From contig PLJS01000278.1 in assembly GCA_003140315.1 (NCBI GenBank), positions 1 through 61,813 on the forward strand: DNA of 61,813 bases, given 5' to 3'. The stretch is from Hyphomicrobiales bacterium. GTDB taxonomy: Bacteria; Pseudomonadota; Alphaproteobacteria; Rhizobiales; Xanthobacteraceae. A program made the position numbers and the translations under genes. The notes under the pieces were generated by a model. It made no database searches and was not told where the DNA came from. It saw only the letters and a program-made list of their open reading frames with translations. Positions 43,546 through 51,883 of this stretch are shown here, in pieces (the stretch's first letter is position 1; every line of letters begins with the position of its first letter).

Positions 43546-44340
43546 TCACGTCTCTAGCGCCCGCACCTGCTTCGCGTTCTCGGTCGCTGCAGCAAGCAGG
43601 AAGCCCAAGTCGGTGCCGGTCGAGACGAAACGCGCACCCATCTTGACGAATTCGCCGGTGAGCTTCGGACGCGAGGCGAGTCCGCCGACACCGACATGCT
43701 TGCCGTGCTTCCTTGCGGCCGCGATCGCCCGCGCATACGCGTCGCGGACGCGCGGATTCTCGTAGTCGCCCGGAATGCCCATATCGGCGGTGAGATCATT
43801 GGTGCCGAACAGCGCCATATCGACGCCCTCGACGGCAAAAATCTCGTCGGCGCGTTCGATCGCCTCGGCGCTCTCGAATTGCACGATCACCATGGTGGCG
43901 GCGTTCAGCACGCGGTAGTGCTCTGTCGCGGGCGGGCTGCGGAAGCCGAACTGCGCCAGTCCGCTGCCGTAGCCGCGCTCGCCGAGTGGCGGATATTTCG
44001 CCGCCTTCACGGCCTCGCGCGCCTGTGCGGCATTACGCACGTCCGGCACGATGATGCCGAGCGCGCCACCATCGAGCACCCGCTGCACCAGTTCGAGTTG
44101 CGGCACGCGCACGAATGCCGCGATGCCAACGTCCAGCGCCGCAACGCAGATCTGGCTCGTCGTCTCCAACGACAGGCTCGAATGTTCGAGATCCACATAA
44201 AGCGAGTCGAAACCCGCGGTCTTGGCAAGCCGCGCGATCTCGACGCTGCGCGTGAGGCGCACCGTCATCGAGGCGACGACCTCGTTGCGCGCGAGCTTTT
44301 CCTTCACGACATTGCGCACCGCATAATCGGACATGGTCAT
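43546..44340 (-). CDS. HpcH/HpaI family aldolase/citrate lyase-type protein
   Basis: A 264-residue class II aldolase-like TIM barrel. FDSLYVDLEHSSLSLE, GIIVPDVRNAAQAREAVKAAKYPPLGERGYG and the acidic metal ligands in VQFESAEAIE and GTNDLTADMG match the HpcH family, which cleaves 2-keto-4-hydroxy acids to pyruvate or a related 2-keto acid plus an aldehyde. The start ATG overlaps the metallo-hydrolase stop (ATGA). It is the last gene of the GST, hydrolase, aldolase operon, a set that suggests late steps of aromatic or lactone breakdown. Confidence 0.9.
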   Translation of the reverse strand: MTMSDYAVRNVVKEKLARNEVVASMTVRLTRSVEIARLAKTAGFDSLYVDLEHSSLSLETTSQICVAALDVGIAAFVRVPQLELVQRVLDGGALGIIVPDVRNAAQAREAVKAAKYPPLGERGYGSGLAQFGFRSPPATEHYRVLNAATMVIVQFESAEAIERADEIFAVEGVDMALFGTNDLTADMGIPGDYENPRVRDAYARAIAAARKHGKHVGVGGLASRPKLTGEFVKMGARFVSTGTDLGFLLAAATENAKQVRALET

Positions 44341-45227
44341 GCAGCCGGCTCGAACATGTAGCCCTCGCCCTGCCGACGCACATAGCCGCAGTAAGGCGCC
44401 CCGAGATGCATCGGCATGATCAGCGCGCCGCGCTCGGCCGCGCGGGCAAGCACCGCCGCGCGCGAGGCGAGCGCCTTGTCGGGCCAGAGGCAGTAGCGGT
44501 CGTTCCAGTCGGGCCGCGCGATCTGGATCGCGTTGTGCATGATGTCGGCGGTGAAGATGCCTTCCTCGCCGCGCGAGCGAATTCGAAATGAAAGCATGAG
44601 GGGCGCGTGGCCGGGCACCGGCTCGGGCGCGAGGCAGCCGGCGACCTCGCTTTTGCCGTCCATGAAGTCCGCGAGACCGGCATCGAGAATCGGCAGCACG
44701 CTGTCGACATGCGAGCCGCCATTGATGGCTTTGTCGCCCTTGTCGTAGAGCGCTTGCCAGTAGTCGAACTCATCCTTGGGAAACAGATAACGCGCCTTGC
44801 CGAAGGTCGGCACCCATTTGCCGTCCTTCTCGACCGTGTTCCAACCGACATGGTCGGTGTGCATATGCGTATGCACGACATGCGTGACCTGCTGCGGGCC
44901 CGCGCCGATCGCTTCGAGCCAGGGCATGACCAGCGTGTTGAGGCGATCCATGCGCTCGGCCGGACGGGGTTTCCGGTTTCCCACTCCGGTGTCGATCACG
45001 ATCACGTTGCCGCCCGCGTGCACGACCCAGAGCTGGATCGTGACGATCAGCCGGTCCATGTGCGGTACGTAATGGTTTGGCGCGAGCCAGTTCGCATTGG
45101 CCTTGAGCACCGCGTCGCGCTCGGCCTTGTCGACCGCCGGATAGAGAAACGCCGGATCATGCGTGGGCCCGGAATATTCGATCACGCCGGTGATACGCGC
45201 ATCGCCGATGCTGTGATGGTGGATCAT
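44337..45227 (-). CDS. Metallo-beta-lactamase-fold hydrolase (lactonase/quorum-quenching-like)
   Basis: A 296-residue MBL-fold protein with the dinuclear zinc motif HMHTDH (H121-x-H123-x-D125-H126) inside VVHTHMHTDHVGWN. Further metal ligands are likely in VPGHAPL and FTADIMH. The overall shape resembles AiiA/MPH-type lactonases and phosphotriesterases. No signal peptide is seen, so it is probably cytoplasmic. It starts 9 nt after the GST stop and overlaps the aldolase start. It may open a ring-cleavage lactone before the aldolase acts. Confidence 0.88.
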   Translation of the reverse strand: MIHHHSIGDARITGVIEYSGPTHDPAFLYPAVDKAERDAVLKANANWLAPNHYVPHMDRLIVTIQLWVVHAGGNVIVIDTGVGNRKPRPAERMDRLNTLVMPWLEAIGAGPQQVTHVVHTHMHTDHVGWNTVEKDGKWVPTFGKARYLFPKDEFDYWQALYDKGDKAINGGSHVDSVLPILDAGLADFMDGKSEVAGCLAPEPVPGHAPLMLSFRIRSRGEEGIFTADIMHNAIQIARPDWNDRYCLWPDKALASRAAVLARAAERGALIMPMHLGAPYCGYVRRQGEGYMFEPAA

Positions 45228-45236
45228 GGAGCGGGC

Positions 45237-45860
45237 TCAATCATCCTTCGGCTCGTTTGCTGCGACCGACTGGCGCGCGTTGAAAATCTTGTGCCAGGCG
45301 GCGATGCGCGGATGCAGTTTGCGCCAGTCGAGCTCGCCAAAGCGGAAGTCGATGTAGCCGAGCGCGACGCCGAGCGCGATGTGCCCGATCGAGAATGGCG
45401 ACGACGCAAGCGCGTCCGCCTCGTCCTCCAGCGCGCCGACCGACGTGATGGTTTTCAGCCGCCATGCGTCAATGTGTTCCGCGGACCGACGGCCCGCGGG
45501 GCGCAACTGCTCGGTCCGCCACGTCAGCAACGTATCGAGCATGCCGTCACCGAGCGCCTGGCGGCGCAACGCGGTCCATCGCTGCGGCAAAGCCGACGGA
45601 AACAGCTTCGCGCCGTCGTGGAGGGAGTCGAAATATTCGCAGATCACCGGCGAGTCGTAGAGCACCGTGCCGTCCGCCAGCACCAGCGTGGGCAGCCGGC
45701 TTTGCGGGTTTTGCCGCATCAGCTCCAGGTTCGGCGTCGCGGACGCGACAAGCGTGCGCACGGTGCGCAGGCGGTCGCCAAGGCCCAGCTCGTGTGCCGC
45801 GATCATCACCTTGCGCACGAAAGGCGAGCGCGGCGACCAGTGCAGCAGCATGTCCTGCAT
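45237..45860 (-). CDS. Glutathione S-transferase family protein
   Basis: A 207-residue GST. MLLHWSPRSPFVRKVMIAAHELGL is the thioredoxin-like N-terminus, with SPFVRK carrying the catalytic Ser of zeta/theta-like bacterial GSTs. LPTLVLADGTVLYDSPVICEYFD is the glutathione-binding strand and cis-proline region. The chosen ATG has GGGAAG 7 nt upstream; the frame can extend 18 codons further without better support. It is the first gene of the operon with the metallo-hydrolase and aldolase, and it faces the CoA transferase genes across 129 nt. An isomerase role in a ring-cleavage pathway is possible. Confidence 0.87.
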   Translation of the reverse strand: MQDMLLHWSPRSPFVRKVMIAAHELGLGDRLRTVRTLVASATPNLELMRQNPQSRLPTLVLADGTVLYDSPVICEYFDSLHDGAKLFPSALPQRWTALRRQALGDGMLDTLLTWRTEQLRPAGRRSAEHIDAWRLKTITSVGALEDEADALASSPFSIGHIALGVALGYIDFRFGELDWRKLHPRIAAWHKIFNARQSVAANEPKDD

Positions 45861-45989
45861 GCGTTTCTTCCCTGAGGCGAGCTTGTCACCAATCAGGTGG
45901 CGGGGACAAGTCATGGCCCGTGCGCGCTTTCCTCATGGCCGCGCCGCGCCCGCGATGCTAGAAGGCAAAAAACACGGGACAGGGACGGA

Positions 45990-46658
45990 ATGCCGATCGA
46001 TAAGCGGGTTGCGTCAGCCGCGCAGTCGCTGGAGGGCGTCGGTGACGGGGCGACGGTTTTCATTTCAGGCTTCGGCGGCGCGGGATTTCCCAACGTCCTC
46101 ATTCGCGCTCTGCGCGAACGCGGGCCGAAAAATCTAACTCTGGTCGTGAATTCGGCGACGCACCGCTATTCGCTCACCCATGAGCTCATCGACGCCAACC
46201 TGGTGCGCAAGGTGATCTGCACCGCCGCGCGCGGCCACACCAAAGACCCCTCTGCGTTCGAAAGCCGCTGGATGGAAGGCAAGATCGAGCTCGAGTGCGT
46301 GCCGCAGGGGACGTTCACGGAACGCATCCGCGCCGCCGGCGCCGGCATCCCGGCGTTCTTCACGCCGGTCGGGTTCGGCACCGAGCTCACAGCGGGAAAA
46401 GAAGTGCGCCGCTTCGGCGAACGCGACTATGTGCTCGAGCCCGCGATCGCCGGCGACCTCGCGCTCATCCGCGCCGATACCGCCGACCGCTACGGCAATC
46501 TCACCTTCCGCTACGCGCAGATGAATTTCGGCCCCGTGATGGCGACCGCCGCGAAGCTCGCCGTCGCCGAGGTGCGCGCCTTCGCCGAAGAGCCGATCCC
46601 GCACGCTCAGGTGCAACTCCCCGGCGTCTATGTCGACCGCGCGGTGGCCGTGTCATGA
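45990..46658 (+). CDS. 3-oxoacid CoA-transferase subunit A
   Basis: A 222-residue class I CoA transferase alpha subunit. VFISGFGGAGFPNVLIRAL near the N-terminus contains the glycine-rich CoA-binding loop, and GIPAFFTPVGFGTELTAGKEVR is characteristic of PcaI/SCOT-A/AtoD-type subunits. The ATG follows AGGGA and gives MPIDKRVASAA. It overlaps subunit B by ATGA. It transfers CoA from succinyl- or acetyl-CoA to a 3-oxo acid such as acetoacetate or 3-oxoadipate. Acetoacetate from the HMG-CoA-lyase-like enzyme at 22206 is one possible substrate. Confidence 0.92.
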   Translation: MPIDKRVASAAQSLEGVGDGATVFISGFGGAGFPNVLIRALRERGPKNLTLVVNSATHRYSLTHELIDANLVRKVICTAARGHTKDPSAFESRWMEGKIELECVPQGTFTERIRAAGAGIPAFFTPVGFGTELTAGKEVRRFGERDYVLEPAIAGDLALIRADTADRYGNLTFRYAQMNFGPVMATAAKLAVAEVRAFAEEPIPHAQVQLPGVYVDRAVAVS

Positions 46659-47338
46659 CGCCGCTGAATCGCCTGCAGATCACCTGGCGCGCCGCGCAGG
46701 ACATCGAGGATGGCGAGGTCGTCAATCTTGGCATTGGTCTGCCGGTGCATTGCTCGGATTATCTGCGGCCGGGCGTCGACGTGGTCATCCAGGCCGAGAA
46801 CGGCGTGATCGGCGCGGGCCCGCTCGCGGCGCATGACAAGATCGACACCGATCTCGTCGATGCCGGCTCACGGCGCATCACGCTGCGGCCGGGCGCTTCC
46901 ATCGTCGACTCCTCATGGTCGTTCGCCATGATCCGCGGCGGACATATCGACGTGACGATCCTCGGTGCGTTCGAAGTGGCCGCCAATGGCGATCTCGCGA
47001 ACTGGGACATGCGGATTGCGAACCGCGGGCCGCTGGTCGGCGGTGCGATGGATCTGGCGGCCTGCGCGCGTGCCGTGTGGGTCATCATGGAGCATGTGAC
47101 GCGCAAGGGCGCGCCGCGGCTGTTGGAAAGATGCGCGTTGCCGCTCACCGCCGTGCGCTGCGTCAGCCGCGTCTATACCGACTTGGCCGTCGTCGACGTC
47201 ACGCCGCACGGCTTTTTGGTGCGCGAGATCGTGGACGGGATGAGCCGCGACGAATTGCAGGCGAAAAGCGGCGCGCCGCTCGCGTTTGCAGGCGACTGCA
47301 AGGTGCTGACCGCGCCGCCGATCGCGCTGCCGGAGTGA
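46655..47338 (+). CDS. 3-oxoacid CoA-transferase subunit B
   Basis: A 227-residue beta subunit. VVNLGIGLPVHCSDYL and the catalytic motif QAENGVIGAGP are present, with Glu48 in ENG as the residue that forms the CoA thioester intermediate. The end, VDGMSRDELQAKSGAPL, matches PcaJ/SCOT-B proteins. It overlaps subunit A by ATGA and is followed after 5 nt by the alpha/beta hydrolase gene. That gene order resembles beta-ketoadipate operons (pcaIJ with pcaD). Confidence 0.93.
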   Translation: MTPLNRLQITWRAAQDIEDGEVVNLGIGLPVHCSDYLRPGVDVVIQAENGVIGAGPLAAHDKIDTDLVDAGSRRITLRPGASIVDSSWSFAMIRGGHIDVTILGAFEVAANGDLANWDMRIANRGPLVGGAMDLAACARAVWVIMEHVTRKGAPRLLERCALPLTAVRCVSRVYTDLAVVDVTPHGFLVREIVDGMSRDELQAKSGAPLAFAGDCKVLTAPPIALPE

Positions 47339-47343
47339 GCGGC

Positions 47344-48132
47344 ATGAATTTCATCGAGGCGAACGGCGTCTCGCTGCGCTACGCGCTCGCAGGCAGCGGC
47401 AAGATGCTGGTGCTGATCCACGAGATGGGCGGCACGATGGAGAGCTGGGACCTCGTCGTGCCCGCGCTTTCGGCGAAACGCCGCGTGCTGCGCTACGACA
47501 CGCGCGGCGCGGGGTTCTCGGAGAAAATCCGAGGGGTCCTCAAGATCGACGCCATGACGGACGATCTCGTCGCGCTGCTCGATGCGCTCGGCATCACGGA
47601 AAAGGTTGCGCTCGCCGGCACCGCGGTCGGCGGCGCGATCGCACTGCATATGGCCGTGCGTTTTCCCGAGCGCGTTGCCGCCGTGATCGCCACCAGCCCG
47701 GCGATCTCGATCCCGCCGGCCAACCGCGCGGCCGTGCTCGCGCGGGTCGCAAAATTCGAGAGCGAGGGCTTGCGCCCGGCGGTCGATGCGACCGCCGCCA
47801 ACGGCTATCCAGTAGAGCTGCGCCAGGACACGGCGCGCTTCGAAGGCTTCCGCGCGCGCTGGCTCGCGAACGATCCCGCAAGCTTCGCCGCGATCTATCG
47901 CATGCTCGCCGACATGGACCTTTCGGGCGAACTTGCGCGCATCGCATGCCCGGTGCTGGTGATCGGCGGCGGATACGATCGCGGCCGCCCGCCCGCCGTG
48001 GCCGAGCCGATTGCGCGAGCGATCCCCGGCGCCACGTTCAAGGTCCTGCCGACGGGGCACTACGCGGCGCTGCAGACGCCGGAACTGGTGGTGGCGGCGA
48101 TCGAAGAATTTCTGCAGCACGTCGGGGCTTAG
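47344..48132 (+). CDS. Alpha/beta-fold hydrolase of the PcaD type lacking the nucleophile serine
   Basis: A 262-residue alpha/beta hydrolase close in layout to 3-oxoadipate enol-lactonase. The oxyanion region is LIHEMGGTMESWD, and YDTRGAGFSE follows. The nucleophile elbow reads AGTAVGGA, so position 94 is Ala (codon GCG at 47623-47625) where G-x-S-x-G is expected. The other triad members are likely kept: Asp212 in GGGYDRGRP and His239 in PTGHYAAL. Without the serine it should not act as an ordinary esterase. It might be inactive, use a decarboxylase- or lyase-like mechanism, or bind ligand only. The rest of the frame is intact and coupled to the CoA transferase genes. Confidence 0.9.
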   Translation: MNFIEANGVSLRYALAGSGKMLVLIHEMGGTMESWDLVVPALSAKRRVLRYDTRGAGFSEKIRGVLKIDAMTDDLVALLDALGITEKVALAGTAVGGAIALHMAVRFPERVAAVIATSPAISIPPANRAAVLARVAKFESEGLRPAVDATAANGYPVELRQDTARFEGFRARWLANDPASFAAIYRMLADMDLSGELARIACPVLVIGGGYDRGRPPAVAEPIARAIPGATFKVLPTGHYAALQTPELVVAAIEEFLQHVGA

Positions 48133-48574: not shown

Positions 48575-48757
48575 ATGCGGACCCAAGTCATCGCGATCAT
48601 CGCCTTGAGCGCCGTCGTCGTCGCGGCGATCTGTCTGGCCTTGCCACATGCGACCGTTACGCTGAACGAGGCGGGAACCGACGTCGTCGCAATCGACGTC
48701 TTCGCTGTGACGAACAACGCGGAAAACCCTTCTGAGCAACGGTACGCCGAGCACTAG
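48575..48757 (+). CDS. Small exported or membrane-anchored hypothetical protein
   Basis: A 60-residue product starting with MRTQVIAIIALSAVVVAAIC, a plausible signal peptide or single membrane anchor, then a short hydrophilic tail (TNNAENPSEQRYAEH). GGGGAGT lies about 7 nt before the ATG. Its TAG stop shares the tetranucleotide CTAG with the convergent czcA stop. No family is recognised. An earlier in-frame start at 48539 would add 12 residues without a better ribosome site. Confidence 0.5.
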   Translation: MRTQVIAIIALSAVVVAAICLALPHATVTLNEAGTDVVAIDVFAVTNNAENPSEQRYAEH

Positions 48758-51700
48758 CCGGAGGTCGCGGCGGCCTCCTCCTTCTGCTCGGGCGCGAACG
48801 CAGCAGGTTTGTCCCGCATGAACAGGCGGGCAAATGTGGGGATAACGGTCAAACTGCAAATCGGAGAGAGCAGCATGCCGCCGACGATCACGCAGGCGAG
48901 CGGCTGCTGCACCTGCGATCCGATGCCGGTGGAGATCGCCGCCGGGACCAGGCCGATGCAGGCGGACAGTCCCGTCATGAAGATCTGCCGCATACGCGTC
49001 TCGCCGGCCGCGATGATGGACTCCTCGACGCCTTGTCCGAGCGCCCGATTGCGGCGCACGTAGGAGATGAGCAGGATGCCGTCCATCGCCGACACGCCAA
49101 ACAGCGAGATGAAGCCGATCGCTGCCGAGATGCTGAAATTTAGGCCCGCGACCGTGAGCCCGAGGATGCCGCCTGCAACCGCGAACGGGATGCCGGAGAG
49201 CGCGAGCAGGCTGTCACGCACCGAATTGAACAGGCTGTAGAGCAGCATGAAGATGAGCAGCAGGCTGATCGGGACGATCAAGGCAAGCCGCTTCTGCGCG
49301 TCCACGAGTGCGCCGAATTCGCCGGTCCAATCGAGCTTGTAGCCCGCCGGCAGCGGCACCTTGTCGGCGACGCGCTTCTGCGCCTCCGCGACGGTGGAAC
49401 CGAGATCGCGGCCGCGCACGCTGTACTTGAGCGGAACGAAGCGCTGACTGTTCTCTCGATAGATGTAGGACGCGCCGCTTTCGAGCCGCACGTCGCCGAG
49501 CTCGCCGAGCGCGATATAGGCGGGCGGCGACTTCGGATCGCTGTTCGGCAACGCGACCGGGATCGAGCGGATCGCATCGACATTGTCGCGATATTCCGGC
49601 GCGAGGCGGACCGTGAGGGCAAAATTGTATTCGCCCTCGTAGACGCGCGTGATCTCCTGTCCGCCGATCGCCGCCTGGATCACCGCATTGATGTCGCCGA
49701 CGGCGAAGCCGTAGCGCGCAGCCTTGGCGCGATCGATCCACACGACCAGATTCGGCTGGCCCAGAAGGTTGAACACGCCGGGATCGGCGATGCCCGGCAC
49801 GTCGGAAATCTCGGCCTTCACGGCCCTCGAGAGGCGCTGCAGCTCGCCGAGATCGTTGCCGAAGATCTTCACCGAGTTCTCGCCCTTCACGCCGGACACC
49901 GCCTCCTCGATGTTGTCCTGGATGTATTGCGAGAAATTGAAATCGACGCCGACGAATTCGCTTGCGAGCCGGTCGTTGAGATCCTTGACGAGTCCCTCCT
50001 TCGTGAGGCCGCGCGGCCACTCATCGAGCGGCTTCAGCGGCACGAAGAACTCCGCCACGAACGAGCCGTCCGGATCGGTCGCGTCCTCGCCGCGGCCCTG
50101 CTCGGACACGACCGTTTGCACGACAGGATAGCTGCGGATGATGTCGCGCATGCGCGCGACGCTCTCCATGCCGGCCTCGAGCGTGATCGTCGGCGGCAAC
50201 AGGGCCCTGATCCACATGTTGCCTTCCTCGAGCTTCGGAAGGAACTCGCTGCCGAGCCGCGTCGCGAGCGCGCCGCAGATCAACAGGAAGACGAGCGCGA
50301 TAGCAGCCGCGACGCAGCAGTGGCGTACGGCGCGGGGCAAGACCTCGTCATAGGCCTTGCGGAGCCAACGCACGACCAGCGTTTCGACCTCGTTGACGTG
50401 CTCGGGCAGCAGGATCGAGGCGAGTACCGGCGTGACGGTGAAGGTCGCGATCACGGAGCCGATCAGCGCATACGCATAGGTCCGCGACATCGGACCGAAG
50501 ATCTGTCCCTCGACGCCCTGCATCGTGAACAGCGGCAGAAACGCCGCTATGGTGATGATCACCGAGAACAGGATCGCCTTATCGACCTCGACAGCGCCGA
50601 TCAGCACACGGTCGAGCTTGTTGGTCGGCGCCGCATCGGCCTCGCGCCGGGGATGCGCAAGGTGACGGAAGATATTCTCGACCATGATGACAGTCGCATC
50701 GACGATGATGCCGAGATCGATCGCGCCGACGGACAGGAGATTCGCGGATTCGCCCCTCAGCGCCGTGACGATGACCGCGAGGAAGAGTGCCACGGGGATC
50801 GTCGCCGCCACGATCAGCGCGCAACGGAGATTGCCCAGGAACACCCACTGGATCAAGAAGATCAGCGCGACACCGAAAATGAGGTTGTGCAGGACGGTCC
50901 GCACTGTGGTGGCGACAAGGTCGCCGCGATCGTAGAAGACATCGACCTTCACGCCCGGCGGCAGGCTGCCGTCGGTGTTGATGCGCTCGATCGCAGTGCG
51001 CAAGCGCTGCACCACCTCCATGGTGCGCTCGAGCTTCTGCATCAGGATGATGCCGAACAGGATATCGGTCGTCTCGTTGCGTCCCGCGATGCCGAGGCGT
51101 GGCGTAAAGCCGATCTGCACCTTGGCGACGTCCGACAGCAGCACCGGTACGCCGCCCTGCTGCGTCAGGACGATGTTGCCGATGTCGTCCAGCGAGCCGA
51201 TGATCCCGATGCCGCGGACATTGACAGACTGTTCTCCCATCGCGATGGTGCGGCCGCCGACATTGGAATTGCCGGCCGAGATCGCCGTGATGATCTGCGG
51301 CAATGTCAGGCCATAGGCCACCATCTTGTTGAGATCGACCTCGGCCTGGAACTCCTTGGTCTTGCCGCCGAGCACCGACACGTCGGCGACGCCCGGCACG
51401 GTGCGCAGCTTGCGCTCGACGACCCAGTCCTCCAGCGTCTTGAGCTCGGTCAGGGACATGCCGGGCGGTCCCTTGAGCTGGTACCGCATGATCTCGCTGA
51501 TGCCGCCGGCCGGAGAAATCACCGGCTGGACACCGTTCGGGAGCGTCGCGTCCTTCAGGCGATTGAGGGTCTGCTGGCGCACGAAGTGATAGTCGCGCCC
51601 ATATTCGAACTGCAGGCGGATGAACCCCAGCGCGAAGACGGTGTTCGAGCGCAGGTATTTCGGGCGTGCTCGACACCGCGATCTCGAGCGGGATCGTGAC

Positions 51701-51883
51701 GTAACGTTCGACTTCTTCCGGCGACTGGCCGGGCCATTGCGCGATCACCTCGATGATCGGCGGCGAGGGGTCCGGATAGGCTTCGATGTTGAGCGCCGTG
51801 AAGGCCGCGTAGCCGAGGCCGAGAAAAGCCAGCAACGACACCAGCGCCGGCGTCGAGGCCGTCGAGTACTTGCACGCGGCCAT
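48754..51883 (-). pseudogene. CzcA-type heavy-metal RND efflux pump, start lost and frameshifted
   Basis: Together the pieces encode about 1040 residues of a CzcA/CusA-like inner-membrane proton antiporter. The intact 3' frame (to 48754) includes AIDLGIIVDATVIMVEN with the conserved Asp, Asp and Glu of the proton relay. The first 75 residues (ALNIEAYPDPSPP, EEVERYVTIPLEIAVSSTP) lie in another frame; near 51659-51661 the frame jumps to KYLRSNTVFALGF. The usual start and first dozen residues are absent, because czcB coding sequence runs straight into ALVSLLAFLGLGY at about 51843. No full-length pump can be made from this sequence. An assembly error is the alternative. Confidence 0.82.

Follow-up and report, generated by a model that had tools for sequence, protein, structure and literature searches.

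The gene P0001 occupies positions 47344..48132 on the forward strand of a 61,813-nucleotide contig from a Hyphomicrobiales bacterium (PLJS01000278.1 of assembly GCA_003140315.1; we call this whole analysed stretch of DNA the window). It encodes a PcaD-like alpha/beta hydrolase of 262 amino acids with Ala at its nucleophile elbow, as judged from its translation, Pfam and NCBIfam models, homologues, a profile search of the PDB and a fold match. Upstream on the same strand lie the genes for both subunits of a 3-oxoacid CoA-transferase: subunit A (PcaI/ScoA family, 45990..46658, its start inferred within an open reading frame spanning 45897-46658), which scored 233.8 bits against TIGR02429 (cut-off 128.5), and subunit B (PcaJ/ScoB family, 46655..47338), which scored 261.2 bits against TIGR02428 (cut-off 243.55). 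The start of subunit B overlaps the end of subunit A, and the hydrolase ATG follows the subunit B stop by 5 bases. The opposite strand carries a divergent gene for a glutathione S-transferase (GST) family protein (45237..45914), a metallo-beta-lactamase (MBL)-fold hydrolase that weakly resembles the AidB lactonase (44337..45227; 64 bits, cut-off 360), an HpcH/HpaI-type aldolase/lyase (43546..44340), and genes for a family-3 solute-binding protein and an ABC ATPase. Also on the reverse strand, the gene of an RND efflux pump (PF00873) at 48754-51883 is apparently split over two reading frames, with profile positions 105-1020 matched in one frame and 12-75 in the other, which seems to reflect either breakage of the gene or an error in the sequence.

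In the translation of P0001, residues 91-98 read A-G-T-A-V-G-G-A, placing Ala94 (codon GCG, 47623..47625) at the elbow, while the acid Asp212 (47977..47979) and the base His239 (48058..48060) are retained. A preliminary description of this DNA had reported this elbow and codon, the preserved Asp and His, and an undamaged frame coupled to the CoA-transferase genes, and on each point the translation and gene spacing bore it out. An additional departure lies in the oxyanion loop, where Glu27 (codon GAG, 47422..47424) replaces the Gly of the usual H-G, so that the loop reads H-E (within H-E-x-x-G).

P0001 belongs to the alpha/beta hydrolase superfamily (PF00561, 81.9 bits, cut-off 25.8), and its best NCBI models are PcaD and PcaD fusions. 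The label 'PcaD-like' used in the preliminary description holds for the fold and the nearest curated family but not for the curated PcaD score, which at 155.2 bits against TIGR02427 fell under the cut-off of 255.85; this score, together with Ala at the nucleophile position, rules out a true PcaD. The enol-lactonase of Burkholderia xenovorans (2XUA) was the top PDB match to the profile of the P0001 clade defined below (E 7e-52), and when P0001 alone was the query 3OM8 ranked first and 2XUA fourth. Fold comparison also ranked 2XUA first, with a TM of 0.85 to a moderate structure model of P0001 (built from three input sequences; pLDDT 75, with residues 29-33 and 240-244 below 50). P0001 shares with PcaD/CatD its fold, length, acid and His and, in the window, has a PcaIJ-type CoA-transferase as its neighbour; it differs from them in having Ala for Ser and H-E for N-S in the loop, as well as Arg172, Asp177-Pro178 and Arg215, which are typical of the P0001 clade.

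Searches with the P0001 protein applied no elbow filter and covered overlapping genome sets that include its own genome. Relatives turned up in 9 of 397 genomes within the order (E 1e-45) and in 48 of 296 within the family (E 1e-38), as well as in 5 of 385 from the class and 4 of 398 from the phylum. From 114 loci we obtained 101 distinct homologous proteins and took as the clade the 68 that carry Glu27. Every one of these 68 has Ala at position 94, as compared with 3 of the 33 homologues lacking Glu27, the other 30 of which have Ser. Pairwise identities within the clade run from 28 to 94% (median 39%), and G30 and G57, like E27 (the mark used for selection) and A94, are invariant in all 68 members, as are D212 and H239 in the 67 that are readable at those positions. 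Arg172 is found in 59 of the 68 and Arg215 in 64. The Ala94 codons (GCG 31, GCC 29, GCA 5, GCT 3) resemble overall Ala codon use in the clade, and dN was lower than dS in all seven pairs computed (0.03-0.21 versus 0.14-0.72). The Ala elbow is real, clade-wide and under selection. The preliminary description had taken it for either a single T-to-G lesion or a non-hydrolytic member (lyase, decarboxylase or ligand-binding), and saw selection as seemingly maintaining a protein unable to form the usual acyl-enzyme. The close homologues found carry Ala with synonymous variation at codon 94, which refutes a lesion, and a private mutation or sequencing error has next to no chance of explaining Ala in 68 of 68 members through four codons. 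Maintenance by selection is supported by the invariant residues, the dN and dS values and the clade itself, which fit a lyase, a decarboxylase or a ligand-binding protein alike. Gly92 of the elbow has also been lost in 22 of the 68 members, as if the strained turn might no longer be needed in these proteins.

Members of the clade occur across Alphaproteobacteria and in some Beta- and Gammaproteobacteria. Named examples include those of Roseomonas aerilata (DSM 19363) and Primorskyibacter flagellatus, and others are plasmid-borne in Aminobacter (including sp. MSH1), Paracoccus, Pseudomonas luteola, Massilia and Paraburkholderia. Three more plasmid relatives (L112-L114, 33-37% identity) have Ser at the elbow. 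On plasmid p195_2 of Bradyrhizobium sp. 195 (L111, 8001-8704), a relative of P0001 is found in two pieces, one annotated as a small hydrolase and the other overlying hypothetical proteins on the opposite strand; it is probably a decayed copy.

Phylogenetic analysis addressed whether Ala94 defines a clade, and Ala and Glu27 together did so. A quick tree was built on 100 rows after masking of columns 27 and 94 and exclusion of the partial protein L095, and placed 67 Ala/Glu proteins on one side of a single branch (SH-aLRT 93). A more careful tree of 53 rows below 70% identity, for which column 26 was masked as well, again put the 40 Ala/Glu rows on one side of a branch (support 97/92). The remaining Ala proteins fell outside this group, and because the trees require at least three (quick) or at least two (careful) changes between Ser and Ala, more than one origin of Ala is possible, the direction of change and the long branches being unsure. 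The genome of P0001 also encodes two hydrolases, L161 and L182, that combine the H-E loop with a Ser elbow, which shows that Glu27 does not always go with Ala.

We surveyed the neighbours of the gene using local family models, setting 61 clade loci against 20 control stretches taken from as many of these genomes, a rough control in which related loci were counted separately. The MBL-fold protein was present in 22 of the 61 loci, GST in 18, CoA-transferase subunits A and B in 15 each, two thiolase models in 8 each, and BKACE in 4, with none of these in any control stretch. Taken together, a CoA-transferase, thiolase or BKACE gene accompanied 24 of the 61 loci and none of the 20 controls. The HpaI-type aldolase/lyase was found in only 3 of 61 loci; ABC transporter (17/61 versus 7/20), TctC (18/61 versus 3/20) and ECH (12/61 versus 1/20) genes were not clearly enriched; and single families, among them HpaI, BKACE, both thiolase models and the ABC transporter, stayed above p 0.05 in the control comparison. 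The associations divided along the clade: in the half that includes the window, 22 of 31 loci had the MBL-fold gene and 20 of 31 had a 3-oxo-acid gene (CoA-transferase, thiolase or BKACE), compared with 0 of 30 and 4 of 30 in the other half, where CMD, amidohydrolase, cupin or a small conserved protein was more often present. These half-by-half counts were made by hand from the neighbour list and the quick tree, and because the models were derived from these very neighbourhoods and the loci include many related ones, the contrasts between halves and with controls serve as a guide and not as a test. On a plasmid of P. luteola, the clade gene is accompanied by a thiolase, both CoA-transferase subunits and catC, and EthD is annotated in two plasmid loci. 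As constant partners both catC and EthD were ruled out, catC being present in 1 of 61 loci and the EthD gene used as query matching itself alone.

We also read the elbows of every other frame that matched the alpha/beta-hydrolase model (E 1e-6) in the 61 loci. The 28 other hydrolases comprised 17 with Ser, 9 with Ala, 1 with Asp and 1 with Cys. The half of the clade without the window had all 17 Ser elbows, 16 of them in PcaD-like proteins mostly adjoining the Ala gene. Within the 31 loci of the window's half, the 10 other hydrolases were nine Ala and one Cys, and no Ser elbow was read at this threshold. Counted over the clade, 22 of the 68 members have a Ser-bearing paralogue in the same locus, and a looser model added one more (L086). 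These 22 pairs of an Ala-elbow and a Ser-elbow PcaD-like gene, mostly adjacent, are in L035-L039, L041, L042, L045-L047, L070-L073, L075-L078, L080-L082 and L109.

Because the clade keeps the rest of its active site despite having Ala, its members are probably working enzymes with a different chemistry. Our preferred reading, between belief and doubt about which we are evenly poised, is that P0001 is an active general-base enzyme that lacks a nucleophile and acts most likely on an enol-lactone or an enol/beta-keto acid ahead of the CoA-transferase. The clade would have given up the nucleophile and retained the remaining machinery, in which Asp212 would position His239 as a general base that attacks substrate or water directly, Glu27 would sit in what was once the oxyanion pocket and donate or accept protons as a relay, Arg215 and Arg172 would bind carboxylates, and no acyl-enzyme would form. 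In the window's half of the clade, P0001 would most likely replace the enol-lactonase (PcaD/CatD) step, yielding by the opening or tautomerisation of an enol-lactone or enol acid a 3-oxo acid, which the adjoining CoA-transferase (or a thiolase or BKACE in other loci) would then activate or cleave. A canonical PcaD encoded in these loci would not be carrying out this step, since no Ser-elbow hydrolase was read in the 31 loci. In favour of the proposal stand the four invariant residues, the synonymous change at codon 94 with dN below dS, the supported branch, the placing of many of the genes in clusters for acid catabolism (3-oxo-acid genes at 24 of 61 loci, and the P. luteola plasmid locus in particular), and 2XUA as best PDB match by profile and fold. 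Several observations weigh against it. The MBL-fold protein could fill the enol-lactonase slot instead, catC is nearly absent, and 37 of the 61 loci have none of the three 3-oxo-acid genes, which are scarce in the other half of the clade. As for the mechanism, Glu27 also stands beside Ser in L161 and L182, neither Arg is invariant, and the structure model is too moderate, with its two poorly predicted segments, for active-site geometry to be read.

A rather unlikely alternative is that P0001 is a beta-keto-acid decarboxylase, in which the His-Asp dyad and loop residues would hold a 3-oxo acid while CO2 is lost non-covalently, as in tomato methylketone synthase 1. That plant enzyme also has the alpha/beta hydrolase fold and carries Ala in its elbow. 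The parallel with P0001 lies in this elbow and in 3-keto acid chemistry. ShMKS1 decarboxylates 3-ketoacids (PMC6843456), and a 3-oxo-acid context surrounds most loci of the window's half. In the window's own operon, however, a 3-oxo acid would rather reach the CoA-transferase, and loss of CO2 would be wasteful unless the substrate had two carboxylates.

Less probable still is a pseudoenzyme, with P0001 serving as a ligand-binding protein or as a partner subunit, for example of a neighbouring Ser-bearing paralogue. The 22 members with such a paralogue in their locus, and L086, would suit this idea, but the other 45 members, including that of the window, lack a Ser-elbow relative in the stretch fetched (some of these stretches being short) at the thresholds used. 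The invariance of His239, Asp212 and Glu27 also argues against it. NDRG proteins have the alpha/beta hydrolase fold without a nucleophile, as does P0001, and NDRG3 is described as non-enzymatic, with all of its triad residues replaced (PMC7022630). A dyad without use would be expected to be lost in the same way, which favours use of the dyad in the P0001 clade, where unlike in NDRG3 both His and Asp persist.

We consider it very unlikely that P0001 is a cofactor-free oxygenase like HOD, in which His239 would deprotonate an enol and O2 would occupy the pocket vacated by the change of Ser to Ala. In HOD the nucleophile is reported not to be essential and a His-Asp pair to act as the base, and HOD-type dioxygenases with natural Ser-to-Ala elbows exist, Ala favouring O2 at the site (PMC10548524). 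The dispensable nucleophile with His-Asp as base is also a precedent for our preferred reading of P0001. HOD-type enzymes nevertheless differ in their known substrates, which are N-heteroaromatic, and in the place of the acid: with the elbow at Ser101, the HOD dyad is formed by H251 and Asp126, 25 residues past the elbow (PMC10548524). P0001 has no Asp or Glu at residues 110-125 and keeps Asp212 as its conserved acid, and on these grounds we did not file it with HOD. Nor was any HOD-type enzyme named among the best 60 of 480 PDB matches to the clade profile.

Equally improbable is a relocated nucleophile, with Glu27 (through an ester or anhydride intermediate) or Ser34 making the attack. A search for a moved nucleophile singled out these two as the only clade-typical polar loop residues that stand out: Glu27 is invariant, and position 34 is Ser in 64 members, Thr in 3 and Asn in 1, compared with the 33 homologues outside the clade, 22 of which have Met there. 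A Ser preceding Trp in this helix is, however, common among alpha/beta hydrolases, and Ser34 looks structural.

If the clade does work without a nucleophile, its annotation hides another reaction. The five named plasmid members that we fetched are all annotated as plain alpha/beta (fold) hydrolases, a name that implies a serine chemistry that clade members cannot carry out in the usual way. The clade would then be a natural test of turning a Ser-His-Asp machine to non-covalent chemistry, with Ser-bearing sisters in the same locus for about a third of its members. Because Ser-to-Ala elbows have been reported for HOD-type dioxygenases, alpha/beta hydrolases that dispense with the nucleophile are already known in principle, and the P0001 clade would add a variant, with a putative function. 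A literature search covering titles and the starts of abstracts found no description of the Ala94/Glu27 clade among the matches listed.

The nine other Ala-elbow hydrolases of the window's half point to a broader pattern. They form four groups: five with GHA[YF]G (53-94% alike), two with GTAAGG (41% alike) and two singles. With the same model and threshold, Ala was found at 4 of the 46 other elbows of the window's own genome and at none of the 3 that could be read from control stretches, and a Fisher test of Ala enrichment in the window's half against the own genome gave p 9e-7 with related loci treated as separate; the model was built from 101 rows, 71 with Ala, which introduces a small bias common to the own-genome figure. 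It is possible, and we suggest it tentatively, that alpha/beta hydrolases free of the nucleophile are a recurrent, unrecognised catabolic class whose members travel together and serve consecutive steps on enol(ate)s or beta-keto acids through His-Asp (with Glu27 in P0001), in a hydrolysis, lyase or oxygenase reaction new for the fold.

GHA[YF]G hydrolases are encoded at L048:4544-5542, L049:4512-5360, L059:5281-6126, L060:4906-5748 and L102:8845-9789, and in the window's own genome (G000) at positions 2765-3625 of contig C270 (L180). The C270 gene, whose elbow reads GHAYG, sits between thiolase and FAA-hydrolase genes, and the start of its protein resembles a signal peptide by eye. In two sister genomes, G408 and G447, its orthologues share a locus with the orthologue of P0001, as do its relatives in G589, G500 and G1182, and a relative was found in 14 of the 43 genomes with a P0001-clade gene (E 1e-25). 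No relative of this second Ala hydrolase turned up in the PDB at E 1e-6. Further Ala elbows in the window's half (GTAAGG, GCAIGG and GVAAGG) are found in L089 from 15388, in L091 from 13849, at L093:14484-15251 and in L094 from 5825. Across the own genome, 49 distinct elbows were readable in the fetched subset of 63 Pfam matches, some of them fragments, and comprised 32 Ser, 6 Asp, 5 Ala, 5 Cys and 1 His. Besides those of P0001 and the C270 gene, its Ala elbows are in L003, L169 and L178 (GFAMGG, GFAFGA and GHAFGN). The Ala proteins of C270 and C293 form one group, with 33% identity between the C293 protein and the orthologue in G447 of the C270 protein.
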